Positions 1 through 12,383 of a stretch of 12,508 nucleotides of DNA are shown in pieces. How positions within the stretch are numbered: the stretch's first letter is position 1; every line of letters starts with the position of its first letter. Position numbers and translations under genes: made by a program. The stretch covers positions 1 to 12,508 of the forward strand of contig PXOY01000045.1 of the NCBI GenBank assembly GCA_003021915.1, read 5' to 3'. The stretch comes from Parcubacteria group bacterium SW_4_49_11 (GTDB lineage Bacteria > Patescibacteriota > Minisyncoccia > SW-4-49-11). The notes beneath the pieces were generated by a model, which had not been told where the DNA came from, ran no database searches, and was given only the letters and a program-made list of their open reading frames with translations.

Positions 1-11
1 CTAACGGCTTA

Positions 12-55
12 CTATTTCCTGGGGACTGCCAATAGCAGCATCCTGCTGGCGTTGA
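12..55 (+). repeat. Interspersed structured repeat, core unit 1
   Basis: This copy starts with CTATT at 12-16, runs through GGGGACTGCC, and closes with AATAG at 31-35, which is the reverse complement of CTATT. A second small hairpin follows, CAGCA (36-40) with TGCTG (44-48). Positions 21-55 match 9138-9172 over 35 bases with two differences, one of which turns an A-T pair of the first stem into a G-T wobble. The variable hairpin that precedes the core in other copies is either outside the window or absent. GGAGG/CCTCC (68-90) and a GGACACA word (72-78) follow, and the copy at 9138 is also followed by GGACACA. Confidence 0.75.
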
Positions 56-97
56 CCAGGTATTACGGAGGAGGACACAAAATTGCCTCCAAGCACT

Positions 98-125
98 TGC
101 TACCTGCTACTCGCTACATGCTACT
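98..125. repeat. Tandem heptamer, four copies
   Basis: Four consecutive 7-mers read TGCTACC, TGCTACT, CGCTACA, TGCTACT. The same arrangement of four YGCTACN heptamers recurs at 9375-9402, also preceded by CACT and also downstream of a gene 3' end. I see no coding meaning for it. Confidence 0.8.
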
Positions 126-150
126 TTTAGTCCACATTCTATTCACAACC

Positions 151-200
151 GTATATCTACCTTAGATCATGCCGAAAGGCATATATATAACTTATATATC
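151..200 (+). repeat. GTATATC-hairpin repeat, copy A
   Basis: GTATATC (151-157) is followed eleven bases later by a degenerate copy TTAGATC (162-168). Then come a hairpin ATGCC-GAAA-GGCAT (169-182), an 11-base AT-rich linker and ATATATC (194-200). The architecture matches four other copies in the window. The element ends two bases from the dnaN stop codon, so it lies in the 3' untranslated part of dnaN mRNA. It could serve as a 3' end structure, but no T-tract follows it. Confidence 0.7.
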
Positions 201-201
201 T

Positions 202-1314
202 CTATTCCCTCAGCGGCATAACCAAGTACAGAAGAGAATTATCTTCCGAATCGCGCATAACCGCCGCGGAATCGGGATCATTGAAGGAAAAGGTCAGATG
301 CTCACCGTCAAAGGCGGAGAGGCCATCCAGGAGGTACTGGTAATGAAACATAATCTCGAACGGTTGCTGTTCACCAAGCTCCAACTGCACCGGAATGCGC
401 GAAGTATTTTGTCCCACCTCAGATTGACTACTCTTTACCTCCAGACCGCCTTCCGGATCAAACGAAAGACGAATAATGTGCGAGGCGTCCGTGGAAAAGA
501 CGGCCGCCAGCTGAATGGCCTGCCGCAAGTCTTCTTTCTGAAAGGCGACACGATAGGCAAAATCTTGAGGAATCAAGGCGTCGTACTGCGGGAAGGTTGC
601 CTCCAGAAGTTTCGAAATAACTTCGGTCGTGCTCAAAGACGCCATAACTTGACTATCACTAAAGGAAAGCTCTAACGCTTCGTCCTCCTGAGCGTCTAAA
701 ATGCGGATCAGTTCTTGCACGGTATGCGTGGGGATAAGAGCGGAGAATCCTTCAGGCGCTTCGGTGTCCAGGCGGAGTTGTTTTTCACTCAACCGAAAGC
801 CATCCGAGCCGACCAAATAGAGGACACCGTTATGTACGGACAAATACACACCTGCAATTTCAGGGCGTGTATTGGTTTTCGCGAGACAAATACTCGCTTT
901 TTTGAGCGCACTGACAAAAGAAGCTCGGTCCAACTGCAAAACGTGTTTGGCCTCGAACTGAGGAAGATCCGGAAACTCCTCGCTATTCATACCATGAAAC
1001 TGAGCGCTGAACTCCTCGCCGCTTTTGACCGTTAAGGTTTCTTCAGAAAGTTCTAGATCCACCTTTTCGCCCGGCAGATGCTTGATATAGGAAATTAATT
1101 TGTCTTGAGGGATGGTAATTGATCCTTCATCTTCGATGCGCCCGCGAATGATAGATTTAATGCCGAGCTCTAAGTCCGTACTTGTTACGGTTAACGCACC
1201 TCGTTCCGCTTTAATTAAAAAGTTATTTAAAATGGGGAGTGTTGTGTGTCTCGTCTTTTGCTTTGCTACTTGCAACCCGCCTGCCAAATTTTCTTGCAAA
1301 CACGTAACATGCAT
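202..1314 (-). CDS. dnaN: DNA polymerase III subunit beta (sliding clamp)
   Basis: The 370-residue product is the beta sliding clamp, which encircles DNA as a dimer and tethers the replicative polymerase and repair proteins such as MutS. Family features are visible: the opening MHVTCLQENL, TDLELGI (46-52), RPEIAGVYL (150-158), GSDGFRL (169-175), FPQYDALIP (241-249) and the C-terminal YLVMPLRE, whose MPLR segment lines the partner-binding pocket. Length is normal for three clamp domains of about 120 residues each. The ATG at 1314 gives the canonical N-terminus; only a weak GAGAG precedes it. It is transcribed away from dnaA, and the gap between them holds the putative origin. The stop codon abuts a hairpin repeat. 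Identification is firm. Confidence 0.97.
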   Translation of the reverse strand: MHVTCLQENLAGGLQVAKQKTRHTTLPILNNFLIKAERGALTVTSTDLELGIKSIIRGRIEDEGSITIPQDKLISYIKHLPGEKVDLELSEETLTVKSGEEFSAQFHGMNSEEFPDLPQFEAKHVLQLDRASFVSALKKASICLAKTNTRPEIAGVYLSVHNGVLYLVGSDGFRLSEKQLRLDTEAPEGFSALIPTHTVQELIRILDAQEDEALELSFSDSQVMASLSTTEVISKLLEATFPQYDALIPQDFAYRVAFQKEDLRQAIQLAAVFSTDASHIIRLSFDPEGGLEVKSSQSEVGQNTSRIPVQLELGEQQPFEIMFHYQYLLDGLSAFDGEHLTFSFNDPDSAAVMRDSEDNSLLYLVMPLRE

Positions 1315-1332
1315 ATCGGTTCTCTCTTAATC

Positions 1333-1338
1333 ATTATA
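1333..1338 (-). promoter_or_regulatory. Putative dnaN promoter, -10 element
   Basis: A perfect TATAAT reads on the minus strand here, 18 bases upstream of the dnaN ATG. No convincing -35 box is visible. The hexamer lies inside the AT-rich stretch proposed as the origin unwinding element, so promoter and unwinding site may overlap. Confidence 0.45.
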
Positions 1339-1352
1339 TATGTATTAAAAAA

Positions 1353-1367
1353 GAGAAGTAGTAGTAG
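1353..1367 (+). promoter_or_regulatory. DnaA-trio-like element next to AT-rich unwinding region
   Basis: The plus strand reads GAG AAG TAG TAG TAG, so read 3' to 5' from the box side it is GAT GAT GAT GAA. This fits the DnaA-trio pattern described for Bacillus subtilis oriC, where DnaA loads on single-stranded DNA. It is bordered by a 6-of-9 DnaA box (ATATCCCCT on the minus strand, 1372-1380) and by AT-rich DNA (1326-1352) on the far side, the expected order. The adjacent box is poor and the best box is about 57 bases away. Confidence 0.5.
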
Positions 1368-1423
1368 GTCAAGGGGATATGAGGAAAACGGTGTTCAACT
1401 CCCATTATGATCCGTATGATATA

Positions 1424-1432
1424 TGTGGATAA
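1424..1432 (-). promoter_or_regulatory. DnaA box, consensus TTATCCACA
   Basis: The minus strand carries TTATCCACA with no mismatch. It is the strongest box in the dnaA-dnaN gap and has the opposite orientation to the three boxes at 1504-1556. Confidence 0.8.
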
Positions 1433-1503
1433 TATGAGGAAGAAGTGTCGAAGAGATCGGGGATAACTCGACGGACGAGGAAGGTTGGGGATAGTCCGCA
1501 CAC

Positions 1504-1556
1504 GTTTCCACAAGTAAAGGTCGAGTTATACAAGGGATTTCCACAAGTTGTCCACA
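1504..1556 (+). promoter_or_regulatory. Cluster of three near-consensus DnaA boxes
   Basis: GTTTCCACA (1504-1512) and ATTTCCACA (1537-1545) each differ from TTATCCACA at two positions. TTGTCCACA (1548-1556) differs at one. All three point the same way, and the last two are separated by two bases, a spacing suited to cooperative DnaA binding. Confidence 0.6.
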
Positions 1557-1562
1557 GAGCGT

Positions 1563-1635
1563 GATATACGATAGATATATGTATCCTTCGGATACGATAT
1601 ACCGTTGATACACATGCCCTTCGGGTATGATATAC
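1563..1635 (-). repeat. Tandem GATATAC-hairpin repeats, copies D and E (33-bp period)
   Basis: GATATAC occurs at 1563, 1596 and 1629, exactly 33 bases apart. Each interval holds an 11-base AT-rich linker and a 15-base hairpin: GTATCC-TTC-GGATAC (1581-1595), then ATGCCC-TTC-GGGTAT (1614-1628) with one G-T pair. The stems differ in sequence yet both pair, and the TTC loop is identical. Relative to copies A, B and C the units are inverted. They lie beside the DnaA boxes, so they may be part of the origin. Confidence 0.8.
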
Positions 1636-1725
1636 GGTAGTGAGCCATGGCAACGACCGGTATGATACAAGTTGGGAAGGTAAGCAGTGATATTTTTCTT
1701 CTATCCTATGTAGAGAGAGGCAACT

Positions 1726-1765
1726 GTATATCGTGCTCGAAGGGCACATATATCTACTGTATCTC
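1726..1765 (+). repeat. GTATATC-hairpin repeat, copy C
   Basis: GTATATC (1726-1732) is followed by the hairpin GTGCTC-GAA-GGGCAC (1733-1747), the 11-base linker ATATATCTACT and GTATCTC (1759-1765). The two heptamers are again 33 bases apart. The copy ends ten bases from the dnaA stop codon, so it lies in the dnaA 3' untranslated region, much like copy A after dnaN. Confidence 0.7.
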
Positions 1766-1774
1766 TAGAGGAGA

Positions 1775-3229
1775 TTACGAATTGTACAATTTATTCCGGA
1801 GAATCGTGACGTCTTGTTCTAAGGCGTAGTCTTTGGAGAGGCGCTCTTTGATCTTTTGATGCGCATGCATGACGGTGGTGTGATCTCGCCCGCCCAGGGA
1901 TTTGCCGATGCCGGGGTACGTGTACTCCAGTTCTTCACGGAGCAAATACATCGTCAGTTGGCGCGGATACGCGATTTCTTGACGGCGCGTTTTGGAGAAC
2001 AAATCGTCTTTGTTGATGCGGAAATGGTCTACGATTACTTCAATCAGGGTGTTCCCGTCGAGAGAGCGCGTTTTTTCCGTCGTGCTACCAGCAACAATGC
2101 GTTTAATCATGTCTTCGGTAACGCTGTTGCCAAGCAGTTGGGCTTGAGCGATGACTTGGTTGAGCGCCCCTTCTAATTCGCGGACGTTGCTTTTGATGTG
2201 CTCGGCGATGGGATAGAGATACGCCTCGGGCAGTTCGAACTGTTTCTGTTCACATTTGCTCTTGAGAATGGCCACGCGGGTCTCGAACTCCGGAAGGACA
2301 ATATCAGCGATCATGCCTCCCTCAAACCGGGATTTAAGACGATCATTGAGGGTTTGAATGGCATTGGGCGGACGGTCGCTGGTGAGAATAATCTGTTTGT
2401 TGTGTGAGTAAAGCTCGTTGAAGGTGTTGAACACTTCTTCCTGAGTCTTTTCTTTTCCTCCGATGAACTGCACGTCGTCGATGATGAGGACGTCTGCGGC
2501 GCGGTATTTTTCCTTGAATTGGTTAATGTTTCCTTGCCTGACGGATTTGGTGAATTCGGAAATGAAGGTGTCCGAGGAAACATAGCAAATATGGTAGTCT
2601 TGCGCGCTCAACTGGTTTCCGATGGCCTGAATTAAGTGGGTTTTCCCGAGGCCCACCCCGCCGTAGACAAACAGCGGATTATAGCGCGTTCCTGGTTCTT
2701 TCGCTACGTTCAGCGCGGCGGCATGGGCGAGTTCGTTGCTTCCGCCTACAATAAAATTTTCGAAGGTATATGCTCCGTTTAACGAGGACGTAGGAGCTTG
2801 AAAAAGCGAGTCTTGGTGTTGCGTGGCCTCGGCGGATTGTTGTGCCTGAGAGTCTGTGAAGGGAGACTCCGGTTCTCCATCAGCGGAGTCTGCGTCTTCT
2901 GTCTCTTCGTTGTTGGAGCTCATTCGGCCGACCGAGCTTTTGAGGTCCACGATATGATTGGCTTTGGTACGCGAGACCGTGCGATCCTCTATCTCGTACG
3001 ATACGGTCTTGATCTCACCGGTGATGTTTTGCACTGATTCCACGATGAGGCTGTGAAATTTGTTACTGAGCCATTCGCGTGTGAACGTATTCGGGACGCA
3101 GACGATAATCTCGTTCTTGTCCATACGAACGATGTACGTATCCTTAATCCAGGTGTCAAACTGGGCTTTACTGACGTTAAGTTCTATTTCTCCAAGCACC
3201 GCGTTCCAGATGCGTTGCCTCTCATCCAT
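1775..3229 (-). CDS. dnaA: Chromosomal replication initiator protein DnaA
   Basis: The 484-residue product is the AAA+ initiator that binds DnaA boxes and opens oriC. The N-terminal domain I (about 1-75) starts MDERQRIWNAVLGEIE. A low-complexity, acidic, Gln/Ser-rich linker (about 85-145) is domain II. The AAA+ core has Walker A GGVGLGKTHL (190-199), Walker B LIIDD (248-252), sensor I ILTSD (281-285), the arginine-finger segment RLKSRF (298-303) and a sensor II region SNVRELEGAL. Domain IV ends with the DNA-binding signature GRDHTTVMHAHQKI (447-460). Length is normal. Its own promoter lies in the 98-base gap after mutS. No strong Shine-Dalgarno site precedes the ATG. Predicted binding sites flank it on both sides, at 1424-1556 and 6000-6234. 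Confidence 0.98.
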   Translation of the reverse strand: MDERQRIWNAVLGEIELNVSKAQFDTWIKDTYIVRMDKNEIIVCVPNTFTREWLSNKFHSLIVESVQNITGEIKTVSYEIEDRTVSRTKANHIVDLKSSVGRMSSNNEETEDADSADGEPESPFTDSQAQQSAEATQHQDSLFQAPTSSLNGAYTFENFIVGGSNELAHAAALNVAKEPGTRYNPLFVYGGVGLGKTHLIQAIGNQLSAQDYHICYVSSDTFISEFTKSVRQGNINQFKEKYRAADVLIIDDVQFIGGKEKTQEEVFNTFNELYSHNKQIILTSDRPPNAIQTLNDRLKSRFEGGMIADIVLPEFETRVAILKSKCEQKQFELPEAYLYPIAEHIKSNVRELEGALNQVIAQAQLLGNSVTEDMIKRIVAGSTTEKTRSLDGNTLIEVIVDHFRINKDDLFSKTRRQEIAYPRQLTMYLLREELEYTYPGIGKSLGGRDHTTVMHAHQKIKERLSKDYALEQDVTILRNKLYNS

Positions 3230-3278
3230 GATGGAAATGGTTATATCTTCTTTTGATCAGAAAATGAATTTTACGTAT

Positions 3279-3308
3279 ATTATACGCAACATTCTCCCGA
3301 ACTGCCAA
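3279..3308 (-). promoter_or_regulatory. Putative dnaA promoter
   Basis: On the minus strand TTGGCA (3303-3308, five of six matches to TTGACA) lies 18 bases from a perfect TATAAT (3279-3284). This predicts a leader of roughly 40 bases before the dnaA ATG. No DnaA box is evident in the leader, so autoregulation there is not supported. Confidence 0.65.
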
Positions 3309-3327
3309 AAATGGCGCGTTTATGGGG

Positions 3328-4188
3328 TTAATACTCATTCGAATCTTCCAGGCGATATTGTAAATCCGCGAGTGTCTGCAGAGCCTGGAGTGGGGTGAGC
3401 TGGTTCACGTCGACCCCCTGGAGCGCGGTTTGAAGCTCTTCATAACGCTCTTTCCAAGGGGACTCAGACGTCGGCGTGTGCCCGTCAAAGAGGGTGGGTT
3501 GACGCGGGGCATCTTCTGTGTGACGTTCGGCGTTAGCAAGCTCCTGGCGAGCTCTATGAAGAACATCTTTGGGGAATCCGGCTTTTTCGGCGATGGTTAT
3601 GCCGTAACTTTCACTCATGCCCCCCGGCTCGATGCTTCGGAGAAAGACCAGGTCCTCAGGTGTTTCCTCCACAGCGACGTGATAGTTTACGACCCCCGGG
3701 TAGCGCTCCTCCAGCTCTGTGAGTTCGTGATAGTGTGTGGCAAATAACGTGCGCGCTCCGATGGTGTCATGAATATATTGCGCGATAGCGGAGGCGAGGC
3801 TCATACCATCGTAGGTGGAGGTGCCCCGCCCGATTTCGTCTAAAATGACCAGGCTTCGGGCAGTGGCATTGTTCAGTATGTGAGCGGCTTCACTCATCTC
3901 CACCATAAACGTGCTCTGTCCCTCGCTTAAGTTGTCGGAAGCGCCTACGCGCGTAAAAATGTGATCGGTCACGCCCACGGTCGCGGAATCAGCGGGCACG
4001 AAACTGCCCATGTGCGCCAGAAGCACAATCAGCGCCGTCTGTCGAATATACGTGGATTTACCGGCCATATTCGGCCCGGTCAAAATAGCTAACTGATGAT
4101 CAGGAGAGAGATCCACATCATTGGGGATAAAGGTCTGGTCAGTATCGATCGCTTCCACGACCGGATGACGGCCGCGCTTGACATACAA
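3328..4188 (-). CDS. mutS: DNA mismatch repair protein MutS, C-terminal ATPase part (frame-split)
   Basis: This 286-residue frame carries MutS domain V, the ABC-type ATPase: GRHPVVE at the start, Walker A GPNMAGKST (38-46), the STFMVEMSE segment (92-100), Walker B LVILDEIGRGTST (113-125) and the FATHYHEL switch (149-156). QPTLF (230-234) resembles the beta-clamp binding motif found near MutS C-termini, and LTPLQALQTLADL matches the family's C-terminal segment. The listed start is a TTG with GAGGA seven bases upstream. However, the frame stays open further upstream and encodes YENGYTRPHITEEQT, the normal MutS sequence before this domain. That means the gene was once continuous with the preceding frame. 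It may be expressed by re-initiation at the TTG, or not at all. Confidence 0.85.
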   Translation of the reverse strand: MYVKRGRHPVVEAIDTDQTFIPNDVDLSPDHQLAILTGPNMAGKSTYIRQTALIVLLAHMGSFVPADSATVGVTDHIFTRVGASDNLSEGQSTFMVEMSEAAHILNNATARSLVILDEIGRGTSTYDGMSLASAIAQYIHDTIGARTLFATHYHELTELEERYPGVVNYHVAVEETPEDLVFLRSIEPGGMSESYGITIAEKAGFPKDVLHRARQELANAERHTEDAPRQPTLFDGHTPTSESPWKERYEELQTALQGVDVNQLTPLQALQTLADLQYRLEDSNEY

Positions 4189-4202
4189 TGTCTGTTCCTC
4201 GG

Positions 4203-5903
4203 TTATGTGTGGTCTTGTGTATCCGTTTTCGTAAGACTGTGGAGTGCGTCGATCTGAGCGATGAGATGGGCATTGTGTTGAATCTCAGCGGCGTTGTCCA
4301 AAATGGATCGACATAATTCGCCAAACAACTCACGTTCTCTGCTGCTCACCTGTTCTTCCGCCGAAAGCATCTTTTCCTCAAACTCCTTGAGCTGGGGCGT
4401 GATATAGCGCTCCGCGTTGGTCAAGGTCTGCCGTTTGATGTAGTGCTCGGGCACTTTGTCCTGATGGGTGTTACTGACCTCAATGTAGTAGCCAAACACT
4501 TTATTATATTGCACTTTGAGGGACGGAATACCGGTCTGCGCCCGTTCTTGTTCTTGAACCTTCGCAAGCCAATCTTTGCCTCCTTGTTGGAGATGGCGAT
4601 ACTCATCAAGCTTAGCATCAAATCCTTCTCGTATCACGCCCCCATTGCGTAACAGCCCGGGCGGGTCTTCGGCCAGCGCCTCATAGAGAAAGCGTTGCAA
4701 ATCAGATAACGAGAAGCGTGTTTCCCATCCCCGACTCAGCTCCTCAGCCTCGTCAGGAGCTAAGAGTTCCTCAATGACCGGCATTTGCTCCAGCGAGGAC
4801 CGCAGAGACGCGATATCTCGTGGGGTGGTCATATCAGCGGCCAAGCGGGCCAAAATACGTTCTATGTCTCGGACATCCCGGAGCGCGGTGGATAGGTTGG
4901 TCAGTGCTTCGGGACGCGACACAAGCTCTTCTACTCTCTGTAACCGTTCTTCGATGTCGTTCACATCTTGGAGGGGAGCCAAGAGCCAGTCTCGCAAAAG
5001 GCGCGCTCCCATTGCCGTTTGCGTCCGATTGATAACCTCCCATAACGAACGCGAACGTTGTCCGCCCCGTATCACCGAAAAGAGTTCCAGATTGGTAATG
5101 GTACCGGTATCTAACGTCATGCGATGCTTGTCTTCGTACGGACTCACCGACGTCATGTGCTCGAGGTCGCGTTGTTGGGTGTAACGAAGATACGCCAGTA
5201 GTCCTCCGGCCGCCCGCAGAGCCGGATCATCATGCGTGAAGCCAAAGCCTTCCAAACTGGCCACGCCCAAACGATTGGCAAGTTCCGTTTGAGCTTGGTC
5301 AGGTTTGAAGTACCAATTGGATTCATAGTTGACCACCAAGTCGAGGCCAGACGTATCCATAAGATCCTTATCTCGCAGACGTTCGGGCAGAACAAGCTCT
5401 TTCACCGGTTGTTTTTTGAGCTCTTCTCGGATCGTGGCCAACGGAAACACTCCTGCGCGCATGAGGCCTGTGGAGATATCTCCCAGAGCGAGCGCGTACC
5501 GCTCTTTGCCCACCGGCGTAACGGCGGCAATCGCGTGGTGAGCGCCCGTTTCCAAATTAGACTCAAATAGCGCCGTGCCCGGCGTAATAACGCGCACAAT
5601 CTCGCGCTTCACCAGTTTCTTGGTTTGGCTCGGATCTTCCGTTTGCTCCGCGATCGCTACGTTATATCCCGCGGCCAACAGTTTTGCCAAATACTGCTCA
5701 GCCGAGTGGTACGGAATGCCGCACATAGGGACTTCGCCGTCAGCGCTGTTCTTCCGCCGCGTAAGCACCAGATCCAAGACCCGCGCTCCTTCTTGCGCAT
5801 CTTCGTAAAAAAGCTCGTAAAAGTCCCCTAACCGAAACAGCAGAAGTGCGTTGGGATTACCCTCTTTCAGTTCTTGATACTGCGTCATCATGGGAGAAGC
5901 CAT
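4203..5903 (-). CDS. mutS: DNA mismatch repair protein MutS, N-terminal mismatch-binding and clamp part (frame-split)
   Basis: This 566-residue frame covers MutS domains I to IV. The mismatch-wedge motif is in RLGDFYELF (Phe28-X-Glu30), followed by CGIPYHSAEQYLAKLL and the ARVLDLVLTRR region of domain I. Connector, lever and clamp sequences follow, including the conserved LKVQYNKVFGYYIEV and KRQTLTNAERYITPQL. The frame leaves the family pattern just after IAQIDALHSL and ends with eight or nine unrelated residues (TKTDTQDHT). The continuation lies in the -1 frame. Together with the downstream frame the total, about 850 residues, is normal for MutS. A 13-base loss relative to the expected sequence would explain the break. 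Alone, this part could bind mismatches but would lack the ATPase and the dimer signalling it provides. Confidence 0.88.
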   Translation of the reverse strand: MASPMMTQYQELKEGNPNALLLFRLGDFYELFYEDAQEGARVLDLVLTRRKNSADGEVPMCGIPYHSAEQYLAKLLAAGYNVAIAEQTEDPSQTKKLVKREIVRVITPGTALFESNLETGAHHAIAAVTPVGKERYALALGDISTGLMRAGVFPLATIREELKKQPVKELVLPERLRDKDLMDTSGLDLVVNYESNWYFKPDQAQTELANRLGVASLEGFGFTHDDPALRAAGGLLAYLRYTQQRDLEHMTSVSPYEDKHRMTLDTGTITNLELFSVIRGGQRSRSLWEVINRTQTAMGARLLRDWLLAPLQDVNDIEERLQRVEELVSRPEALTNLSTALRDVRDIERILARLAADMTTPRDIASLRSSLEQMPVIEELLAPDEAEELSRGWETRFSLSDLQRFLYEALAEDPPGLLRNGGVIREGFDAKLDEYRHLQQGGKDWLAKVQEQERAQTGIPSLKVQYNKVFGYYIEVSNTHQDKVPEHYIKRQTLTNAERYITPQLKEFEEKMLSAEEQVSSRERELFGELCRSILDNAAEIQHNAHLIAQIDALHSLTKTDTQDHT

Positions 5904-5933
5904 GGGGCCGATCCGTTAGTTCTAAGGAAGGGT

Positions 5934-5942
5934 ATTATAGCA
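5934..5942 (-). promoter_or_regulatory. Putative mutS promoter (extended -10)
   Basis: The minus strand reads TGCTATAAT, a perfect -10 with the extended TGn, about 30 bases upstream of the mutS ATG at 5903. No good -35 is visible, which is tolerated by extended -10 promoters. No clear Shine-Dalgarno sequence precedes the ATG. Confidence 0.6.
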
Positions 5943-5999
5943 TGGTGATTCCGTGTTTGCCGAGCTGTTGCACCTGCGCCAAACAAATCGTTTTGTGGT

Positions 6000-6234
6000 T
6001 TGTTCACAAGTTATCCACATATATTTCCCCACCCTTGAAATTCAGCATATATGTCCGCATGCATCTGTTATGTCCAGTTTTAACACTGGTAAGGTGTACG
6101 CACATTCCCGCTTTCATACACGCGTTTTAGCGTCATTGAATTGGGTGAAAGCATCAAAATGGGATATGCGTTTGAGGTAAGCCCCGGACAAGCTCTGGGA
6201 GCGAATTCGATAATTTATCCACATATCATCCACA
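6000..6234 (+). promoter_or_regulatory. Second DnaA-box cluster in the mutS/tRNA-Leu gap
   Basis: Four boxes point the same way: TTGTTCACA (6000-6008, two mismatches), TTATCCACA (6011-6019, perfect), TTATCCACA (6215-6223, perfect) and TCATCCACA (6226-6234, one mismatch). They form two close pairs, each box two bases from its partner, about 200 bases apart. The gap 5904-6345 contains no credible gene. It could be the second half of a bipartite origin around dnaA, a DnaA-titrating site, or a DnaA-responsive control region for mutS. Confidence 0.7.
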
Positions 6235-6345
6235 AGCTAAGTACCACAGAAACACCGCGTTTTTCTGGGATTTAGCCTCCCCTTTATTTAAGCATAGAAA
6301 AAGAGCGCTTCGTGGAACGTGAGTCAATTGTGTATGTACCAAGAG

Positions 6346-6431
6346 TGCTAGAGGAGGGACTTGAACCCTCACGGCCTAGCGAGGCCCCCAGATTTTAAGT
6401 CTGGTGCGTCTGCCGATTCCGCCACTCTAGC
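6346..6431 (-). tRNA. tRNA-Leu(UAA)
   Basis: The 86-nucleotide minus-strand sequence folds as a class II tRNA. The acceptor stem is GCTAGAG/CTCTAGC with discriminator A, the anticodon stem is CCAGA/TCTGG with loop CTTAAAA giving anticodon UAA, and the T arm contains GGTTCAAGTCC. A long variable arm (GGCCTCGCTAGGCC) is typical of tRNA-Leu. The 3' CCA is not encoded. Confidence 0.95.
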
Positions 6432-6444
6432 GCTTTTTAAAATA

Positions 6445-6474
6445 ATTATACGCTACATCTCGCCACTCATGCAA
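6445..6474 (-). promoter_or_regulatory. Putative tRNA-Leu promoter
   Basis: A perfect TATAAT (6445-6450, minus strand) lies 13 bases upstream of the tRNA 5' end. TTGCAT (6469-6474) is a weak -35 at an 18-base spacing. The transcript would have a leader of only a few bases. Confidence 0.55.
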
Positions 6475-6480
6475 GAACAT

Positions 6481-6509
6481 AAAAAAACGCCCGTTATGTG
6501 GAACGGGCG
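6481..6509 (-). terminator. Rho-independent terminator after the 158-residue gene
   Basis: On the minus strand CGCCCGTT pairs with AACGGGCG (8-bp stem, 6-base loop CCACAT) and is followed at once by seven T residues. It lies 31 bases past the stop of the gene at 6541-7017 and separates that unit from the tRNA-Leu promoter. Confidence 0.9.
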
Positions 6510-6540
6510 AATGTAAAGAGATAGGGTAGGTTGCGACTGC

Positions 6541-7017
6541 CTAGTTGGAGAGTAACCTCACATACTCTTTCAGCTCGTCAATCCCGGTAATCTCCAGGCT
6601 ATCATCTTCCGAACTTAAGTAAACTTCGAGTGCTTCTTCCAGGACGTGATTTAGATACGCTCTTTCACTTGCCAGACAGGGGATGTCGTATTCTTCCGCG
6701 ATGTCTTGTGCTTTGCTCGGATTCCGCTTGATCAGCCACAAGACGTGCCGGTGCTTATACAGCACCTTAACCGGAAAGTACTCTGAAAACGTTTCATACG
6801 CATATAAGAGCCGTTCCGACTCCCAAAAGCCGTCAATTCTCGACCTCCGTATTGGACCTTGGTAATATAAGAGGTCCATTGCTCGCTCGAAGAATTTGTT
6901 TTCCAAGTAGGCACTTAGCCTATGAGGCAGAGGGTCGTTGGGGAGGAGACCATTTTCGGGAGTGATTTGTATAGTCATCGTAAATGTGCCGTCTGGCTGC
7001 ATTTGTAGATGTATCAT
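6541..7017 (-). CDS. Hypothetical protein, 158 residues
   Basis: I do not recognise this protein. It appears soluble: no signal peptide or membrane segment is visible. The N-terminal 30 residues (MIHLQMQPDGTFTMTIQITP) look like beta strands, possibly a hairpin. The rest is rich in charged and aromatic residues and predicted helices, with an acidic C-terminal half (NHVLEEALEVYLSSEDD, about 122-138). It is supported as a gene by an uninterrupted frame, a terminator right after its stop and a start codon directly preceded by a 24-base inverted repeat. It lies 76 bases downstream of yraN on the same strand, so it may be the last gene of that transcript or have its own repressed promoter. No Shine-Dalgarno site is evident. 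Confidence 0.75.
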   Translation of the reverse strand: MIHLQMQPDGTFTMTIQITPENGLLPNDPLPHRLSAYLENKFFERAMDLLYYQGPIRRSRIDGFWESERLLYAYETFSEYFPVKVLYKHRHVLWLIKRNPSKAQDIAEEYDIPCLASERAYLNHVLEEALEVYLSSEDDSLEITGIDELKEYVRLLSN

Positions 7018-7041
7018 ACATGTTTATTTTTGTAAACATGT
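7018..7041. promoter_or_regulatory. Inverted repeat abutting the start codon of the 158-residue gene
   Basis: ACATGTTTA (7018-7026) and TAAACATGT (7033-7041) form a perfect 9-bp inverted repeat with a 6-base spacer. The repeat ends directly against the ATG at 7017. It could be an operator for a dimeric repressor, or a leader hairpin that limits ribosome access. Confidence 0.5.
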
Positions 7042-7093
7042 AGTGAAATAGTTGGTACATTGGTGTGATACGCCGTATAGCGGTTGATGGACG

Positions 7094-7480
7094 CTACATC
7101 AGACCTTCGGATAAGTTCAAGAGATGTTCGACCTTGGCGCGTTTGGCCTCCGGACTGACTACTAACGCCACGCCCTCGATCACATAATCATGCTGTTGTT
7201 GGTCGGTTTCGAGTAAATAGTATCGGGCCATACGTTCAATTGTGCGCACCTTCGCTGCGGTTAAGCCATATACGGGGATTTCGGTTTCTTCAAAATCTTC
7301 TTCTTTGCTCAAACGGCTTTTTACCTCCACAAAACGAAACATGGTATTGTAGTATGCCACAATGTCGATTTCCCCTAAGGTTCTGTATTGGTAATTGCGC
7401 GCTAAGACGTGGTATCCCTTTTGGCTGAGAAATCGTTCAGCGAGCGATTCCGTGAATTGCGTGTTCGAAGTGGAGCTCAT
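7094..7480 (-). CDS. yraN: YraN family protein (UPF0102, endonuclease-like fold)
   Basis: The 128-residue product matches the small YraN/UPF0102 family, predicted to have a restriction-endonuclease-like PD-(D/E)XK fold with no settled function. Visible are the N-terminal LAERFLSQKGYHVLARNYQYR pattern (broken here as 13-33), GEID (36-39) and FVEVKSR (50-56). Asp39, Glu52 and Lys54 are candidate active-site residues. I chose the ATG at 7480 because it gives the standard N-terminus and overlaps the upstream gene's TGA as ATGA, which points to translational coupling. A longer frame reaching 7573 exists but only re-reads the upstream gene. It is co-transcribed with the O-antigen ligase-like gene. 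Confidence 0.88.
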   Translation of the reverse strand: MSSTSNTQFTESLAERFLSQKGYHVLARNYQYRTLGEIDIVAYYNTMFRFVEVKSRLSKEEDFEETEIPVYGLTAAKVRTIERMARYYLLETDQQQHDYVIEGVALVVSPEAKRAKVEHLLNLSEGLM

Positions 7481-8856
7481 ACGCGTCTGACGATTACCAT
7501 GAGGCCGGTGAGACTGGAGAGCGCGAACAATACGCCGCCGACCAGACCGGTCTCGGCGGTCATTAGGATCCATATGCTGTGTACAGGCTCATATTGCCAC
7601 GCAGGGAGACCTGAAGGCAAGGCGCTCACATACTGATGAAGGCCGGTACCCCAAAGCGGCGTGTTCTGAATAATTTCGAAGCTGCGTTCCAGATACAGTA
7701 CGCGCTTGTCGAAGGCGGGTCCGCCCCACGGAATAGCTCCGAACACCGCCCCCAAAGCGAGTATGCCGCCCGCTCCAAGCAGGATTTTAACGCGCGGACG
7801 GGAGGTGGCTCGGTTCATCTCCGCGGAAGGGGGCGTACGAGTGCCGGGTTGTTTCACGTGAAACACGCCACGTGCATGAAGGGGGAGAAGGTCCAGAGCG
7901 GCAAAAAACGGCCAAACGGCGTGCGACCAGCTCACGAGCACTCCTCCGGTGAGAGCGGTGACGATCCCCCAAAAACACGCGGGAGGTAACGGAGCAACCG
8001 GAGATACCGGACGACTTATGAGTATCCCAATAAGTACGAGAAATGCGTAAAAGGCTTGCGCACTCGTCAGAAGATAGTGATCCACCAGACTAATCCCGCC
8101 CAAACAAAGTATGATAATCGCGAGCCCCAAGTATTTGTATGTTTCACGTGAAACATTGTCCCGAGCTGTCTCCTGACTCGTTCTCGAGGAAGGAAGGGCC
8201 GTCATCTCTCGCCAAAACAGCCCCGCGAGCGCGGAAAACACAAAGAACGCGAGCACGTTCGGGTGGGGAAAGAATGCGTATCCTCTGATAAGCGTTTGTC
8301 CTCCGAGCGTGGTTTTGGCGATGCCGTCTTTGTCCGGTGAAAGAAGGGGTTCCGAAAAGAAACGTAGGCCCAAATCGTCTTGGCCGATGAACTGGAGAAA
8401 CGCCAGAGCAGCGGCACCCACGCCGGCTATAAGCAGTGCGGAGACACTCGCTTTCCAATACTGTGTTACGAGCGGAGTGAGATGCAAAAGTAACAGCCCG
8501 CCGAGGGTGTAGCGCGTGAGGACGCCCCAGGCCAGGAACGGAAGTTCGGCGTACCAAAGGGTGAGGAAGTTCCAGCCAAACCAGAGTGTGGCGACGCACA
8601 TCAGGAACTGAAGATCTCTCGCGGCAGGTAACTTCTGTTGTTCCACGTGAAACACCAGGAGACTGCCGAGCACTATAAGAGCGAGCAGATCCAGATGGTA
8701 AAAGAATAGCGAAAGGAACGCGTTCGGTTCTGTGGGCAGTTCATACGCTATCAGCGTGGTTCGTACCCCCAACGGAATCGTGAGGATGAACATGAGGAGA
8801 AGCAGTCCGGGCAGGCGTCTGGTCAGATCTCGCATACGTATTGTCTGTGCGGCCAT
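7477..8856 (-). CDS. O-antigen ligase/polymerase-like membrane protein (WaaL/Wzy superfamily)
   Basis: The 459-residue product is strongly hydrophobic with roughly ten membrane segments. The family's signature is near the C-terminus: GTGLHQYVSALP, then VHSIWILMTAETGLVGG, which matches the 'H-N-x-x-L-x-x-x-x-E-x-G' loop of Wzy/WaaL enzymes that join or polymerise lipid-linked glycans at the membrane. A central FPHPNVLAFF segment also fits. The exact substrate cannot be read; in a cell without lipopolysaccharide it may act on another surface glycan. I chose ATG 8856 (M-A-A-Q) because upstream codons run into the intergenic repeats; ATG 8838 is also possible. Three parS sites lie inside the coding sequence, encoded as VFHVKQ, NVSRET and VFHVEQ. 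It overlaps yraN by four bases. Confidence 0.78.
   Translation of the reverse strand: MAAQTIRMRDLTRRLPGLLLLMFILTIPLGVRTTLIAYELPTEPNAFLSLFFYHLDLLALIVLGSLLVFHVEQQKLPAARDLQFLMCVATLWFGWNFLTLWYAELPFLAWGVLTRYTLGGLLLLHLTPLVTQYWKASVSALLIAGVGAAALAFLQFIGQDDLGLRFFSEPLLSPDKDGIAKTTLGGQTLIRGYAFFPHPNVLAFFVFSALAGLFWREMTALPSSRTSQETARDNVSRETYKYLGLAIIILCLGGISLVDHYLLTSAQAFYAFLVLIGILISRPVSPVAPLPPACFWGIVTALTGGVLVSWSHAVWPFFAALDLLPLHARGVFHVKQPGTRTPPSAEMNRATSRPRVKILLGAGGILALGAVFGAIPWGGPAFDKRVLYLERSFEIIQNTPLWGTGLHQYVSALPSGLPAWQYEPVHSIWILMTAETGLVGGVLFALSSLTGLMVIVRRV
7850..7865. promoter_or_regulatory. parS: parS site 1
   Basis: TGTTTCACGTGAAACA is a perfect 16-bp palindrome matching the bacterial parS consensus TGTTNCACGTGAAACA bound by ParB. 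It is read through as VFHVKQ in the O-antigen ligase-like gene. Confidence 0.92.
8140..8155. promoter_or_regulatory. parS: parS site 2
   Basis: This is the same perfect palindrome, extended by one more pair on each side to 18 bp (8139-8156). It is read in a different frame from site 1, as NVSRET, so conservation is at the DNA level, not the protein level. Confidence 0.93.
8639..8654. promoter_or_regulatory. parS: parS site 3
   Basis: TGTTCCACGTGAAACA has one asymmetric base and is identical to the Bacillus subtilis parS consensus as I know it. It is encoded as VFHVEQ. It lies 499 bases from site 2, and site 2 lies 290 bases from site 1. Confidence 0.92.
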
Positions 8857-8884
8857 TTTACATGCTCTCTCAGAGAAACGCCAA
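8855..8884 (-). promoter_or_regulatory. Possible promoter of the O-antigen ligase-like/yraN unit
   Basis: TTGGCG (8879-8884) and TAAAAT (8855-8860) are 18 bases apart on the minus strand. The -10 overlaps the ATG at 8856. If this promoter is used, translation would have to begin at the ATG at 8838 from a very short leader. Confidence 0.35.
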
Positions 8885-8908
8885 GAGCCTCGAAATGCCA
8901 CGGGCACT

Positions 8909-8995
8909 GAAAAAACATGCATGTTTTTTCCGGAGCTCTCACGAGCTCCTATTTTCGGGGGACTGCCAATAGCTCCTCTTGTTCTGGCGTTGAAC
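8909..8995 (+). repeat. Two-hairpin structured repeat, unit 2
   Basis: A palindrome (8909-8930, AAAAAACATG against CATGTTTTTT plus a G-C pair) is followed by a second hairpin, GGAGCTC-TCAC-GAGCTCC (8932-8949). Then comes the conserved core CTATTTTCGGGGGACTGCC with closing AATAG (8968-8972) and TTCTGGCGTTGAACG. The third small hairpin seen in units 1 and 4 is not conserved here. Confidence 0.75.
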
Positions 8996-9010
8996 GTTTC
9001 CTCAGGCACT

Positions 9011-9070
9011 GAAACACCTTGGGTTTCTTCCGGCTTCTTTCAGAAGCCTATTTTCCGACAAGGGGACTGC
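9011..9070 (+). repeat. Two-hairpin structured repeat, unit 3 (degenerate)
   Basis: A weak first hairpin (GAAAC 9011-9015 with GTTTC 9023-9027) precedes a perfect second one, GGCTTCT-TTC-AGAAGCC (9032-9048). The core then reads TATTTTCCGACAAGGGGACTGC, with a few bases inserted, and the closing AATAG is lost. It looks like a decayed copy. Confidence 0.65.
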
Positions 9071-9088
9071 ATCGATTTACTACGGTCA

Positions 9089-9172
9089 CGTAAAAACCTG
9101 GCGGTTTTTACGGAAACCTGACGGTTTCCTATTTTCGGGGGACTGCCAGTAGCAACATCCTGCTGGCGTTGA
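9089..9172 (+). repeat. Two-hairpin structured repeat, unit 4
   Basis: The first hairpin is CGTAAAAACC-TGGC-GGTTTTTACG (9089-9112) and the second is GGAAACC-TGAC-GGTTTCC (9112-9129). The core CTATTTTCGGGGGACTGCC follows, closing with AGTAG (9148-9152) through one G-T pair, then AGCA/TGCT. The last 35 bases match unit 1 with two differences. GGACACA follows, as after unit 1. Confidence 0.8.
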
Positions 9173-9248
9173 ATATGCCCTGCGATCACGGGGGACACAG
9201 AAAAAACATATTTTCCTCAAAAGTGCCCAAGCAACGTTACAGGTTTCA

Positions 9249-9354
9249 GGCTTCTGGATTCAGGCTTCTCTTTTACAACAGTATATCTACGGTATATCGC
9301 GCCTCCAGGCGCATGTATCCATCGTATATCAAAACTTCTGGCTTCCGGATTCAG
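9249..9354 (+). repeat. GTATATC-hairpin repeat, copy B, between 15-bp direct repeats
   Basis: GTATATC (9281-9287) and GTATATC (9292-9298) lead into the hairpin GCGCCT-CC-AGGCGC (9299-9312), the 11-base linker ATGTATCCATC and GTATATC (9324-9330). Flanking it are GGCTTCTGGATTCAG (9249-9263) and GGCTTCCGGATTCAG (9340-9354), 15-mers with one difference. The flanks resemble a duplicated target, but similar sequence continues next to the left copy, so simple slippage is also possible. Confidence 0.7.
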
Positions 9355-9374
9355 AATTTAGACTTCCATTCACT

Positions 9375-9402
9375 TGCTACTCGCTACCTGCTACGTGCTA
9401 CT
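9375..9402. repeat. Tandem heptamer, four copies
   Basis: The units read TGCTACT, CGCTACC, TGCTACG, TGCTACT. This is the same four-unit, 28-base layout as 98-125, with only the last base of each unit changing freely. It ends five bases before the photolyase-family stop codon. Confidence 0.8.
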
Positions 9403-9406
9403 ACTC

Positions 9407-10873
9407 TCATCTCCGCCGCTTCCGCGAGCCATGGGTTTTTAAGACCGCTTCGGCATACCGTTTTCCCAAATCCGAACGTTTAATGGCGTACACTTTGTCC
9501 TTCATGATTGTAGTGCGCGTTTTACGATCCACGATAGGAGTAATGTATCCCGTAAGCGGCTTGGATTCGTGCTTAATAATGTCTTGAGATGAGAACTCCG
9601 CCAGTTCGGGCACCCAGGTGCGAATGAACGTAGCTTCGGGATCTTGATCCGCAATCTGCTTGGTGGGAGAATAGACACGCATGCTGTTAATGCCCGTGAC
9701 TCCTGCCTGCATCTGAATCTGGCTGATATGAATACCCGGCTCGTAGTCATAGAACAGGCGCGCGAGCGGATACATAATCGTCTTCCACGAGAGATGAAGC
9801 GTATATACGGCGAACGAAACAACCATCGCGCGCATCCGGAAATTCAAAAAACCGGTGTGTTGGAGGCAACGCATGCAGGCGTCCACAAGCGGAAAGCCTG
9901 TTTGGCCGGTTAGCCAAGCGGAGAGGAGCTCTTCGTCGTCTTCATACGGCAAAGACTCGAAGGCACGGTTCATGGCATAAAACTCGATCTCGGGCTCGGT
10001 CTCCAGTTTTTGAATAAAATGATCGCGCCAATGCAAACGGGCCTGAAAGTTTCGTAAAGACGATTTCCAGGGTTTGGGCGGCGCCGTCATATGCCTGACC
10101 TCGCGATCCCGCTGCAAGGTCAGCCGATACACGGTTCGCAGAGAAATCGTCCCCCACGCCAGATGAGGAGAAAGACGGGAGCCATACCAAAAAGCAGTAT
10201 TGGGCGAGCTAATATTGCCTCTATACCACTGTCCGCGCTCGGTTAAGAAACTCTTCAGCGTCTGTTGCGCATCGTACTCAGTAACCGGTTGGAGCGTATA
10301 GTCCGCTCTCTGCGGGAAATACGCCAAAATATCCTCGTACGAAAACTCTTTGTTGAGGTGATCCACCGTTTCGTTCGGCGTGGGAATGTGTTCCGGCCGT
10401 GAAATAATCGCTCCGTGCATGCGTTCGTGCCATATCCGTTCGCTTTTATCCCGATCTCGAAGTCCGCGAATAACCCCGTTTTGCGGCAGTTCGTGCCAGG
10501 CTATTCCGTGTTCTTTGCTCCAGTTCTTCATCCGCATGTCACGCGTGTAGGTGACATTGCTTCCCGTCTCTTCGTGAGAGAAAATCGCCTCAAATAGCAG
10601 ATAATACTGAAGATAGTCAAAAGCTTCGGGAAAGTCCGCATGAAGAAAGAGAATATCACTGCCTCGTTCGCGGAATTCCTTTTGAAGATAACAGAGCGCT
10701 TCCCACCAGGCATGAATATGAAAATACGACGTCTCCGATGCTTGTAAAAGCTTCGGCTCAAATACAAATACGGGCACCACTTCTTCGGAGTGAGCCAACG
10801 CGGACGTTAACGCCGGATTATCAAACAGACGAAAATCACGCTTAATCCACCACAGACTACGCGTATATCTCAT
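9407..10873 (-). CDS. Cryptochrome/photolyase family FAD-binding protein
   Basis: The 488-residue product resembles DNA photolyases, which bind FAD and repair UV-induced pyrimidine dimers using light. The N-terminal alpha/beta domain begins RSLWWIKRDFRLFDNPAL (5-22). The helical FAD domain shows SRLSPHLAWGTIS (232-244), WRDHF (282-286), TGFPLVDACMRCL (325-337) and NFRMRAMVVSF (344-354). The stretch QIQMQAGVTGINSMRVYSPTKQ (broken: 385-394, 395-406) differs from the NNGGWQWAASTGTD motif of class I photolyases and marks a separate subgroup, so the substrate is uncertain. The C-terminus is very basic (GSRKRRR). AGGAAG lies seven bases before the ATG, a good ribosome site. It is divergent from the small membrane protein gene. 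Confidence 0.88.
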   Translation of the reverse strand: MRYTRSLWWIKRDFRLFDNPALTSALAHSEEVVPVFVFEPKLLQASETSYFHIHAWWEALCYLQKEFRERGSDILFLHADFPEAFDYLQYYLLFEAIFSHEETGSNVTYTRDMRMKNWSKEHGIAWHELPQNGVIRGLRDRDKSERIWHERMHGAIISRPEHIPTPNETVDHLNKEFSYEDILAYFPQRADYTLQPVTEYDAQQTLKSFLTERGQWYRGNISSPNTAFWYGSRLSPHLAWGTISLRTVYRLTLQRDREVRHMTAPPKPWKSSLRNFQARLHWRDHFIQKLETEPEIEFYAMNRAFESLPYEDDEELLSAWLTGQTGFPLVDACMRCLQHTGFLNFRMRAMVVSFAVYTLHLSWKTIMYPLARLFYDYEPGIHISQIQMQAGVTGINSMRVYSPTKQIADQDPEATFIRTWVPELAEFSSQDIIKHESKPLTGYITPIVDRKTRTTIMKDKVYAIKRSDLGKRYAEAVLKTHGSRKRRR

Positions 10874-10896
10874 AGCATTTCTTCCTAAATGAGGCT

Positions 10897-10924
10897 AGGA
10901 TACTATATGTTTCTTCGATTTCAA
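10897..10924 (-). promoter_or_regulatory. Possible promoter of the photolyase-family gene
   Basis: TTGAAA (10919-10924) and TATCCT (10897-10902) are 16 bases apart on the minus strand. A better -10, TATAGT (10902-10907), lacks a -35 at proper spacing. Either would give a leader of under 40 bases before the ATG at 10873. Confidence 0.35.
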
Positions 10925-10971
10925 AATAGAACATGTGATAGGTGCGTCTTTGGCTATACCAATACTCTCTA

Positions 10972-10980
10972 TGCTATATT
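10972..10980 (+). promoter_or_regulatory. Putative extended -10 promoter of the small membrane protein gene
   Basis: TGCTATATT on the plus strand has the TGn extension and five of six matches to TATAAT. It lies 31 bases before the ATG at 11012. Confidence 0.45.
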
Positions 10981-11011
10981 CATAAATAGAGAGGTTTTTA
11001 CTCTGCATGGT

Positions 11012-11191
11012 ATGGATATCAAACGCATTCTCATAGCGCTCATAGATCTGGTCATCTGGTACGCCTTTATCTACTACTGGCTTTACACCATTCGGACCGA
11101 GGACGTCACGTTATGGCTGAACTCTCTCGTTCTCTTGCTCATGTGTTTGGTGGGGCTGGTTCTTATTCCGTTCGCGTTTCCGCGTCGGTAA
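11012..11191 (+). CDS. Small hydrophobic membrane protein, 59 residues
   Basis: I do not recognise a family. The protein is almost all membrane: about 6-27 (ILIALIDLVIWYAFIYYWLY) and about 34-56 (LWLNSLVLLLMCLVGLVLIP) form two likely helices joined by a short polar loop TIRTEDVT. A basic C-terminal PRR suggests both ends are cytoplasmic. I used the ATG at 11012. The frame is open further upstream to 10889, but that part contains the putative promoter and looks non-coding. GAGAGG lies 17 bases upstream, too far for a standard ribosome site, so the exact start is unsure. It is the only plus-strand protein gene in the window and converges on the DoxX-like gene. Confidence 0.6.
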   Translation: MDIKRILIALIDLVIWYAFIYYWLYTIRTEDVTLWLNSLVLLLMCLVGLVLIPFAFPRR

Positions 11192-11265
11192 GTGGCTGAG
11201 ACGGCTCGTGTATAGCAAAGATAACGCCATCACCAGTTGGAAAAGCCAGTGGGCGAGCCCGCATA

Positions 11266-11284
11266 CCGTACAACGGGTGTACGG
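11266..11284. other. Hairpin between convergent genes
   Basis: CCGTACA (11266-11272) and TGTACGG (11278-11284) form a 7-bp stem with loop ACGGG, six bases past the DoxX-like stop codon. It may help end transcription of the convergent genes, but no T-tract follows on either strand, so I do not call it an intrinsic terminator. Confidence 0.4.
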
Positions 11285-11290
11285 ACCTAC

Positions 11291-11671
11291 TTATTCCTGC
11301 GGACGTTGGGTATCCCATGCGAGAACTCCCAAGGCCAGTGCTCCCGCCATGAGGCCGACGTTCCGAAACACCACATCCAGGAGCGAGAGATTAAAAAGCA
11401 CAATGAGCGCCAAGAACAAAGCCGTGAGAAAACTAGGAATGACTAACCGCTGGCCACTGAGGAGCCAGCCGGCTAAGAGGAGCTCTCCCCAGGTCGATAT
11501 CTGAAATACAAGCTCACGTAAACCGCCTGATAAAAAGCCCGGCACGTACGCTTTCCAGCTCACCGGATCCGTCAACGCGCCGACCCCTGCGTAAATCAAC
11601 ACAAAGGCGAGTCCGAGTTGAAGAATCCAGCGCGCGTACTGTTCGCGATGCTCAAGAACATGGTTTCTCAT
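11291..11671 (-). CDS. DoxX-like family membrane protein
   Basis: The 126-residue product has four likely membrane helices (about 14-32, 57-72, 77-95 and 103-119). The opening RWILQLGLAFVLIYAGVGAL followed by DPVSWKAYVPGFL is the usual start of DoxX/SURF4-like small quinone-associated or redox-linked membrane proteins. The precise role is unknown. It starts 31 bases after the cupredoxin stop, so the two are probably one transcript; pairing with a copper protein suggests a membrane redox or oxidative-stress function, which is an inference. No clear Shine-Dalgarno site precedes the ATG. Confidence 0.75.
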   Translation of the reverse strand: MRNHVLEHREQYARWILQLGLAFVLIYAGVGALTDPVSWKAYVPGFLSGGLRELVFQISTWGELLLAGWLLSGQRLVIPSFLTALFLALIVLFNLSLLDVVFRNVGLMAGALALGVLAWDTQRPQE

Positions 11672-11702
11672 ACGAGGTGCTTGTGGGGTGCTGATTTACG
11701 TT

Positions 11703-12230: not shown

Positions 12231-12261
12231 ACGAAGCAAACTAATTGATATCTTATTACGT

Positions 12262-12267
12262 ATTATA
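12262..12267 (-). promoter_or_regulatory. Putative -10 of the cupredoxin/DoxX-like operon
   Basis: A perfect TATAAT on the minus strand, 31 bases before the ATG at 12230. The -35 region (TTAGGA at an 18-base spacing) is poor. Confidence 0.5.
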
Positions 12268-12363
12268 ACGCCATTCCTTAGAACCTCCTAATGCATTTTT
12301 TGAAAGAGACGTACGTATACCCACTATTCTCTTCTGTATGCTCTTTTCTCACCCTTGTTTTTA

Positions 12364-12372
12364 TGGTATCTT
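12364..12372 (+). promoter_or_regulatory. Possible tRNA-Ala promoter (extended -10)
   Basis: TGGTATCTT has the TGn extension and four of six -10 matches, eleven bases before the tRNA 5' end. No good -35 is visible. Confidence 0.4.
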
Positions 12373-12383
12373 AGAAAGAAGAT

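Follow-up and report, generated by a model that had tools for sequence, protein, structure and literature searches.

The DNA analysed here is a stretch of 12,508 nucleotides from Parcubacteria group bacterium SW_4_49_11 (contig PXOY01000045.1, positions 1 to 12,508), hereafter referred to as the window, in which Pfam identifies dnaN, dnaA, a photolyase gene and a mutS that is divided into two pieces. Its intergenic regions carry arrays of a short word, RTRTATC, which is repeated on one strand at fixed steps and is separated by linkers or by small hairpins with variable, covarying stems. The arrays constitute a genus-specific, intergenic and modular family, which is present in the genome of the window (G000; contig 45 of an assembly of 494,541 bases, 74% complete) and in a sister genome of the same genus (G001; 88% complete).

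Array copies in the window

An earlier analysis of the letters of the window (the sequence-only reading) had described five copies of one plan, in which a hairpin is flanked by GTATATC words. All five places are real, and four of them match the plan well, although several details required correction. The copies were scored with two covariance models, R1 (6-bp stem) and R2 (5-bp stem), built from copies in both genomes (Table 1).

Table 1. Arrays and the neighbouring DnaA box in the window
Feature	Position	Strand	Location	Basis
Degenerate array	151..200	+	ends 1 bp from dnaN stop	sequence; weak model scores
Two-hairpin array	1563..1635	-	dnaA-dnaN gap (origin region)	sequence; R1 48.4 and 41.8 bits
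Single-hairpin array	1726..1765	+	9 bp from dnaA stop	sequence; R1 47.6 bits
Array	9281..9330	+	76 bp from photolyase stop	sequence; R2 44.1 bits
DnaA box TTATCCACA	1418..1432	-	one-base overlap with a solitary ATATATC word	

The first array is worn and reads GTATATC-TACC-TTAGATC-ATGCC(GAAA)GGCAT-ATATATA-ACTT-ATATATC, with a word (151-157), a linker, a worn word (162-168), a hairpin of 5 bp with a GAAA loop (169-182), a second worn word (183-189) and a final word (194-200); the covariance models barely detected it (E 0.2 and 0.051). The segments 1563-1602 and 1596-1635, previously regarded as two copies, form a single minus-strand array, in which the GTATATC at 1596-1602 is common to both. Its words are located at 1629-1635, 1607-1613, 1596-1602, 1574-1580 and 1563-1569, and its hairpins, both of the 6-bp class with GAA loops, at 1614-1628 and 1581-1595. 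The stem formerly given as ATGCCC/GGGTAT was taken from the other strand; read on the array strand, it is ATACCC/GGGCAT, the second stem of the array, and contains a single A.C mismatch. The single-hairpin array consists of a word (1726-1732), a hairpin of the 6-bp class with one T.G (1733-1747), another word (1748-1754), a linker and, at 1759-1765, the worn word GTATCTC, which had been misread as GTATATC. In the array following the photolyase gene, words begin at 9281, 9292, 9313 and 9324 (steps of 11, 21 and 11); the hairpin was redrawn as GCGCC(TCCA)GGCGC (9299-9312) and an extra leading GTATATC-TACG step added. Similar arrays are present at other loci. The DnaA box and its ATATATC word are neighbours in the gap of the two-hairpin array and possibly lie outside the family.

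Array grammar and hairpin design

The spacing, slot and gene-gap counts given below were obtained from fetched stretches of both genomes, many of which had been picked for their arrays. The 11-bp step contains a 4-base linker, mostly [TCA]A[CT][CTG], while the 21-bp step accommodates a 14-base hairpin (5-bp stem and 4-base loop) and the 22-bp step a 15-base hairpin (6-bp stem and 3-base loop). The G001 arrays additionally use a 23-bp step, in which 16 bases of the form NNNN-GTRYCCGC-NNNN replace the hairpin. Among spacings of up to 60 bp, 170 of 178 in G000 equal 11, 21 or 22 bp (86, 41 and 43, respectively; 8 others), and 139 of 151 in G001 equal 11, 21, 22 or 23 bp (60, 18, 20 and 41; 12 others); no such spacing was found in the reversed-sequence control, in which one strand was scanned. 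Some of the 14- or 15-base intervals between words represent two short steps around an inner word. The G000 arrays also include six steps of 10 bp, of which the G001 arrays have none. The arrays comprise 3 to 9 words (those with fewer than three were left out of this count), and their units combine freely, as in 11-21-11, 11-22-22-11 or 11-22-11-21-11, so that composition varies from locus to locus and between the two species.

The words themselves depend on the preceding unit. After a well-formed hairpin, the word starts with A in 64 of 64 cases in G000 and 22 of 23 in G001, whereas the initial letter following a linker is G in 82 of 95 words in G000 and in 49 of 50 in G001. In G000, the post-hairpin word is ATRTATC in 61 of 64 cases, even though it was not demanded by the search.

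The 23-bp step, found 41 times in the G001 pieces, is absent from the G000 pieces, and a separate tally of 16-base intervals yielded 29 in G001 and 1 in G000. The latter difference points to the copying of whole units, with unit types spreading within a lineage. Such copying is also indicated by one 50-base array that is identical at three loci (L052, L061 and L075). The copying mechanism suggested in the sequence-only reading, which would renew the stems, is hypothetical. At L105, L089 and L091, the G001 unit NNNN-GTRYCCGC-NNNN is found between words at the 23-bp step. Its GTRYCC part is identical to the left arm found in some of the 15-base hairpins, and the unit resembles a hairpin whose right arm has disappeared.

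Pairing was assessed in hairpin slots, defined as 14- or 15-base intervals between flanking words with no word inside and irrespective of pairing. Of 115 slots from the two genomes, 93 are fully paired (40 of 53 with 14 bases and 53 of 62 with 15 bases), and no more than one position is unpaired in 110; unpaired stems are thus not as frequent as paired ones. Shuffling whole right arms in 2,000 trials gave maxima of 25 (14-base) and 28 (15-base) fully paired slots, and the observed numbers were never reached. Two alignments were prepared, A1 with 24 of the 26 distinct 15-base slots (two dropped as linkers or unpaired) and A2 with 35 of the 36 distinct 14-base slots (one dropped as a linker or unpaired). 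The percentage of paired cells, which is raised by these omissions (the right-arm shuffle test keeps such rows), amounts to 94.4% in A1 compared with 78.6% after shuffling and to 92.6% in A2 compared with 75.5%. The number of cells changed on both sides is 30 against 9.0 in A1 and 25 against 5.7 in A2. When the partners were slid by 1 to 3 columns, paired cells dropped to at most 63.2% (A1) and 48.6% (A2). The hairpin stems covary.

The loops follow a common design. The final loop base is A in all 110 paired hairpins of the two genomes, and the first is G in 98 and A or T in 12 of them. In the four sets of distinct hairpins, a C-G pair closes 19 of 22, 17 of 18, 11 of 14 and 9 of 10 stems; with distinct hairpins counted separately for each genome, 8 of 64 are without this pair. 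Two designs can be distinguished, one with 5 bp, mostly C(GNNA)G, and one with 6 bp, mostly C(GNA)G; a few loops are TTTA. The third tetraloop base is a purine in 22 of 51 hairpins (13 of 34 in G000 and 9 of 17 in G001), which indicates no clear preference for GNRA. Selection on structure, as suggested in the sequence-only reading, is well supported: stems remain paired through changes in both arms, and the loop ends, like the closing pair, persist as the stems vary.

Distribution and genomic position of the arrays

Whole genomes were searched with both models, up to 150 candidates being scored per genome and E <= 0.01 being applied for counts. At least 51 (R1) and 53 (R2) matches were found in G000 and at least 32 (R1) and 23 (R2) in G001; the models cross-match, partly at the same places, so the counts are not summed, and some chained hairpins, which share a word, may have been missed. 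No R1 or R2 match was obtained in nine other genomes, five of them from the same family (up to 150 candidates scored in each). Of the 383 genomes sampled from the class, two, both members of this genus, contain a strict array pattern (22 and 14 times, respectively), and the 381 others do not. In the G000 genome, GTATATCN{20,30}GTATATC matched 19 times and its backwards-read version 0 times, and RTRTATCNNNNGTATATC with up to two mismatches matched 128 times compared with 15 for the backwards-read pattern; chance does not account for these numbers. The density of arrays in array-picked stretches does not warrant extrapolation to the genome; 26 arbitrarily chosen G001 contigs (159,764 bases) contain three arrays of at least three words and eight of at least two, and no arrays when the sequence is reversed.

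The presence of the same plan in other genera was considered and discarded. None of the 12-mers with seven or more occurrences was present in the 147 kb of G002 or the 40 kb of G003 that were examined, while G004 and G005 gave other repeats and G006 was left out. A contig search matched 13 stretches, seven from the G001 assembly, three from Prevotella and three from Pedobacter; by eye, the Prevotella stretches resemble coding sequence and the Pedobacter stretches other tandem repeats. The Pedobacter contigs (L109, L112 and L113) carry TATATC-NTTG repeats, also with 11- and 22-bp steps, which are probably unrelated. A phage or plasmid origin of the arrays was likewise rejected: window positions 9275-9340 had no match among phage or plasmid records, and the strict pattern had none in viral contigs.

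With simple gene calls, none of 94 arrays (51 in G000 and 43 in G001) overlaps a called gene by more than 25 bp. In tandem gaps, 27 arrays are antisense and 22 sense (15 and 10 in G000; 12 and 12 in G001), so that there is no strand rule relative to the genes; of the remaining arrays, 18 are in convergent and 11 in divergent gaps, and 16 have no called gene on one side of the stretch. The sequence-only reading had placed the copies after stop codons. This holds only as a tendency. Median distances of the arrays are 101 and 127 bp for gene 3' ends compared with 248 and 215 bp for 5' ends, yet arrays are found in gaps of all three kinds, tandem, convergent and divergent, and a rule of one orientation after stops was dropped.

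The tandem copies noted earlier in the origin are genuine, and the dnaA-dnaN gap of G001 also contains an array. In both species, the array lies on the dnaA strand, shortly before DnaA-box-like words (at most one mismatch), and differs in composition. Arrays are not a general part of the origin, because five other genomes of the family yielded no strict-pattern or model match.

Elsewhere, the presence of arrays varies between the species. Some orthologous gaps, with orthologs defined as reciprocal best hits within the fetched pieces, differ in length by entire mosaics (956 and 111 bases in one case, 40 and 736 in another). Among fully covered gap sides, arrays of at least two words are present in both species in 6, in G000 only in 3, in G001 only in 4 and in neither in 17, with one gap possibly counting from both genes and many contigs being array-picked. 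For the 26 arbitrary contigs, the figures are 0 in both, 2 and 2 in one species only and 7 in neither, and the claim of a general conservation of slots between species was given up.

Array-bearing gaps also carry other repeat modules, including TGCTAC heptads, AAAAAGGAGGAAAACACA and GGGGACTGCCAATAGCAA. The heptad pattern matched 64 times in G000 and 25 times in G001. Of 53 other genomes, 3 have 2 to 5 matches each, and the five further members of the family have none. Within the window, GCTACNN heptad repeats are found at 95-125 and 9375-9401, and a module resembling GGGGACTGCCARTAGCARCATCCTGCTGGCGTTGA, which belongs to a set of several modules repeated between the genes of G000, at 20-57 and 9141-9175.

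Possible function and comparison with known systems

The explanation that we favour, with a probability of roughly 0.42, is that the arrays act at the level of DNA rather than RNA and combine extrudable mini-hairpins with phased words. From the phasing, hairpin design and covariation described above, we infer that negative supercoiling would extrude the mini-hairpins, as at the early promoters of phage N4, and that the AT-rich words, about one or two helical turns apart, would ease melting and/or allow a protein that recognizes the words to bind along one helical face. Located between transcription units and at the origin, the array could benefit the cell as a folded-DNA landing platform or by absorbing supercoils, and arrays may spread and reshuffle through recombination at the repeated words.

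The preference for DNA is based on the match of the loops and closing pairs to the rules of N4 promoters and mini-hairpins. According to a review of phage N4 (PMC4496689), the C-G closing pair, the loop G and the loop A are needed for extrusion, the non-conserved stem bases are free as long as the hairpin is kept, and extrusion takes place in vivo with gyrase. The group that reported such mini-hairpins describes them as extraordinarily stable when they combine a GNA or GNNA loop with two or more G-C pairs (PMC4686876). Most hairpins of the arrays possess the N4-type features, namely C-G closing, G first, A last and a free but paired stem. A GNRA loop in RNA requires a purine in third place, so the G000 loops argue against RNA more than those of G001. 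A wider proposal, which we regard as doubtful, is that of a structural grammar in DNA, by which the genus would mark its intergenic regions and origin, with loop design and spacing selected, stems left free and the whole read by a dedicated folded-DNA-binding protein.

Several observations weigh against the favoured explanation. Two of ten covariation measures showed no clear excess over shuffles; in A1, further pair types number 10 compared with 10.0 (reached by 371 of 500 shuffles), and in A2 the excess of pairs changed on both sides is weak (4 compared with 2.4, reached by 68 of 500). Related copies are not independent, and the invariance of the loops partly reflects descent. The tetraloops of G001 show a weaker base preference, with G first in 13 of 17 and a purine third in 9 of 17. 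Predicted DNA folding energies are modest (-2.1 to -6 kcal/mol for six single units or complements), the unit at 1607-1635 hardly surpasses its shuffles, of which 47 in 200 are at least equal to it, and the two strands of a single unit fold about equally. Stem G.T pairs (13) hardly exceed A.C (10), so the stems do not tell which strand folds, and the attempt to deduce the folding strand from these counts was abandoned. The hairpin-less 23-bp step of G001 may mean that words matter more than hairpins. Finally, none of the four array-bearing gap sides in the arbitrary G001 contigs is shared by both species, which speaks against strong site-by-site selection.

The most probable of the rival explanations, itself unlikely, is a double-stranded binding-site array, in which a genus-specific protein would occupy the phased RTRTATC words along one helical face and the palindromes would be spacers or sites for a second protein, without any need to extrude. 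Steps near one or two turns dominate, the 23-bp step holds about two turns without a hairpin, and the words are nearly invariant even where the search did not require them. This explanation leaves the retained loop ends and closing pair amid varying stems unaccounted for, and the fixed lengths could also arise from the copying of fixed modules. Somewhat less probable are REP/BIME-type repeats of single-stranded DNA transposons, moved by an HUH (Y1) transposase that may have been lost or left unsequenced. Hairpins beside a conserved word, mosaic arrays, intergenic location and restriction to a genus fit this origin, as do some orthologous gaps whose array-bearing and array-free versions differ in length by hundreds of bases; a REP of Marinomonas is reported to have a TTTA loop in which T and A may pair (PMC8266576), and a few loops of the arrays are TTTA. 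However, the repeats are direct rather than REP/inverted-REP pairs, and the word is neither GTAG nor CGTC. The transposase search also gave little: the sole PF01797 match in G000 is an IS200-type TnpA of 151 amino acids (L100, 1459-1914) in a 3,360-base stretch without an array, the sole match in G001 (L115) adjoins genes recognized by eye as tnpB and phage-tail genes, again without an array, and 28 of the 30 genomes with PF01797 (55 searched) lack the strict array pattern. The involvement of a RAYT was rejected on these grounds, as far as the two incomplete genomes show. The tnpA gene of L100 is solitary, lies upstream of an infB-like gene (by eye) and has hairpin-like sequence on both sides; L115 is G001 contig 54, on which tnpB, tnpA and phage-tail genes were recognized by eye, and may be a contamination of the assembly.

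Selfish or neutral spread is more improbable still. Modules would be copied by recombination at short repeats, template switching would keep the palindromes perfect and the host would gain no function; the other repeat modules in the same gaps, the differing presence in G000 and G001 and the lack of arrays found in related genera are consistent with this. Template switching, however, would presumably mend stems and not the C(G..A)G loops or the 21/22-bp rule. We attach the lowest probability of all to an RNA-level element, such as 3' untranslated region hairpins, an attenuator or a small RNA. The covarying stems and the proximity to gene 3' ends are in its favour, yet strand is unbiased in tandem gaps (27 to 22), three of the four window arrays are in antisense orientation with respect to the gene that ends beside them, and neither a clear GNRA preference nor a marked G.U excess is seen. 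A comparison of the window and four loci with Rfam gave three tRNAs and nothing else at the gathering score.

Compared with known systems, we read the family as a BIME/BOX-like mosaic without a detected RAYT. As with BIME/REP, the arrays consist of high-copy intergenic palindromes beside a conserved short word and form mosaics, and some BIME/REP families are species-specific. In contrast, the arrays lack the GTAG/CGTC tag and have a constant word both before (RTRTATC) and after (ATRTATC) the hairpin; they run in one direction at fixed steps rather than alternating REP and inverted REP, and their stems are not conserved in sequence but follow two fixed stem-loop designs. No cognate RAYT flanked by repeats was found in the two genomes, whose incompleteness could conceal such a gene. 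BOX elements of Streptococcus (boxA-boxB(n)-boxC) are likewise modular and intergenic, with variable inner units, are restricted to close relatives and cluster with other repeat families. They are, however, 67 to 637 bp long with distinct end modules, whereas the arrays are freely combined 11-23 bp units, in which end modules, inverted repeats and target duplication were not recognised (a comparison by description only).

The N4 early promoter hairpins share the short stem, 3-base loop, first G, last A, C-G closing pair and otherwise free but paired stem bases, extrusion by supercoiling being a feature of N4. There are, however, three such promoters, serving the virion RNA polymerase, compared with dozens of chromosomal copies here, and no such polymerase is implied. 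Arrays of the stem-loop type of TIGR, which is known from candidate phyla radiation (CPR) bacteria, also have tandem units with variable palindromic parts between constant words. They differ in having two 8-12-base spacers per unit, whereas the intervals here are mostly 4, 14, 15 or 16 bases and the arrays are dispersed over the genome; a Nop-domain (Tas) gene, PF01798, was found in neither of the two genomes, both incomplete, and membership in TIGR-Tas was rejected. In line with the sequence-only reading, no described family with this plan was found in searches of an open-access library, either in Patescibacteria or with mini-hairpins.

To our knowledge, covarying stems, extra-stable mini-hairpin loops and helical-step spacing rarely occur together in chromosomal elements. 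Should the hairpins extrude, a single small genome would offer dozens of chromosomal sites at which folded DNA can be tested as a genomic signal, with the natural stem variants serving as ready-made compensatory mutants. The arrays also show that modular repeats can be abundant in a small genome of the CPR.

Elsewhere in the window, mutS is split into two frames (3328-5903), with domains I-IV encoded at 4203-5903 and domain V at 3328-4188, which reflects either an assembly frameshift or a broken gene.

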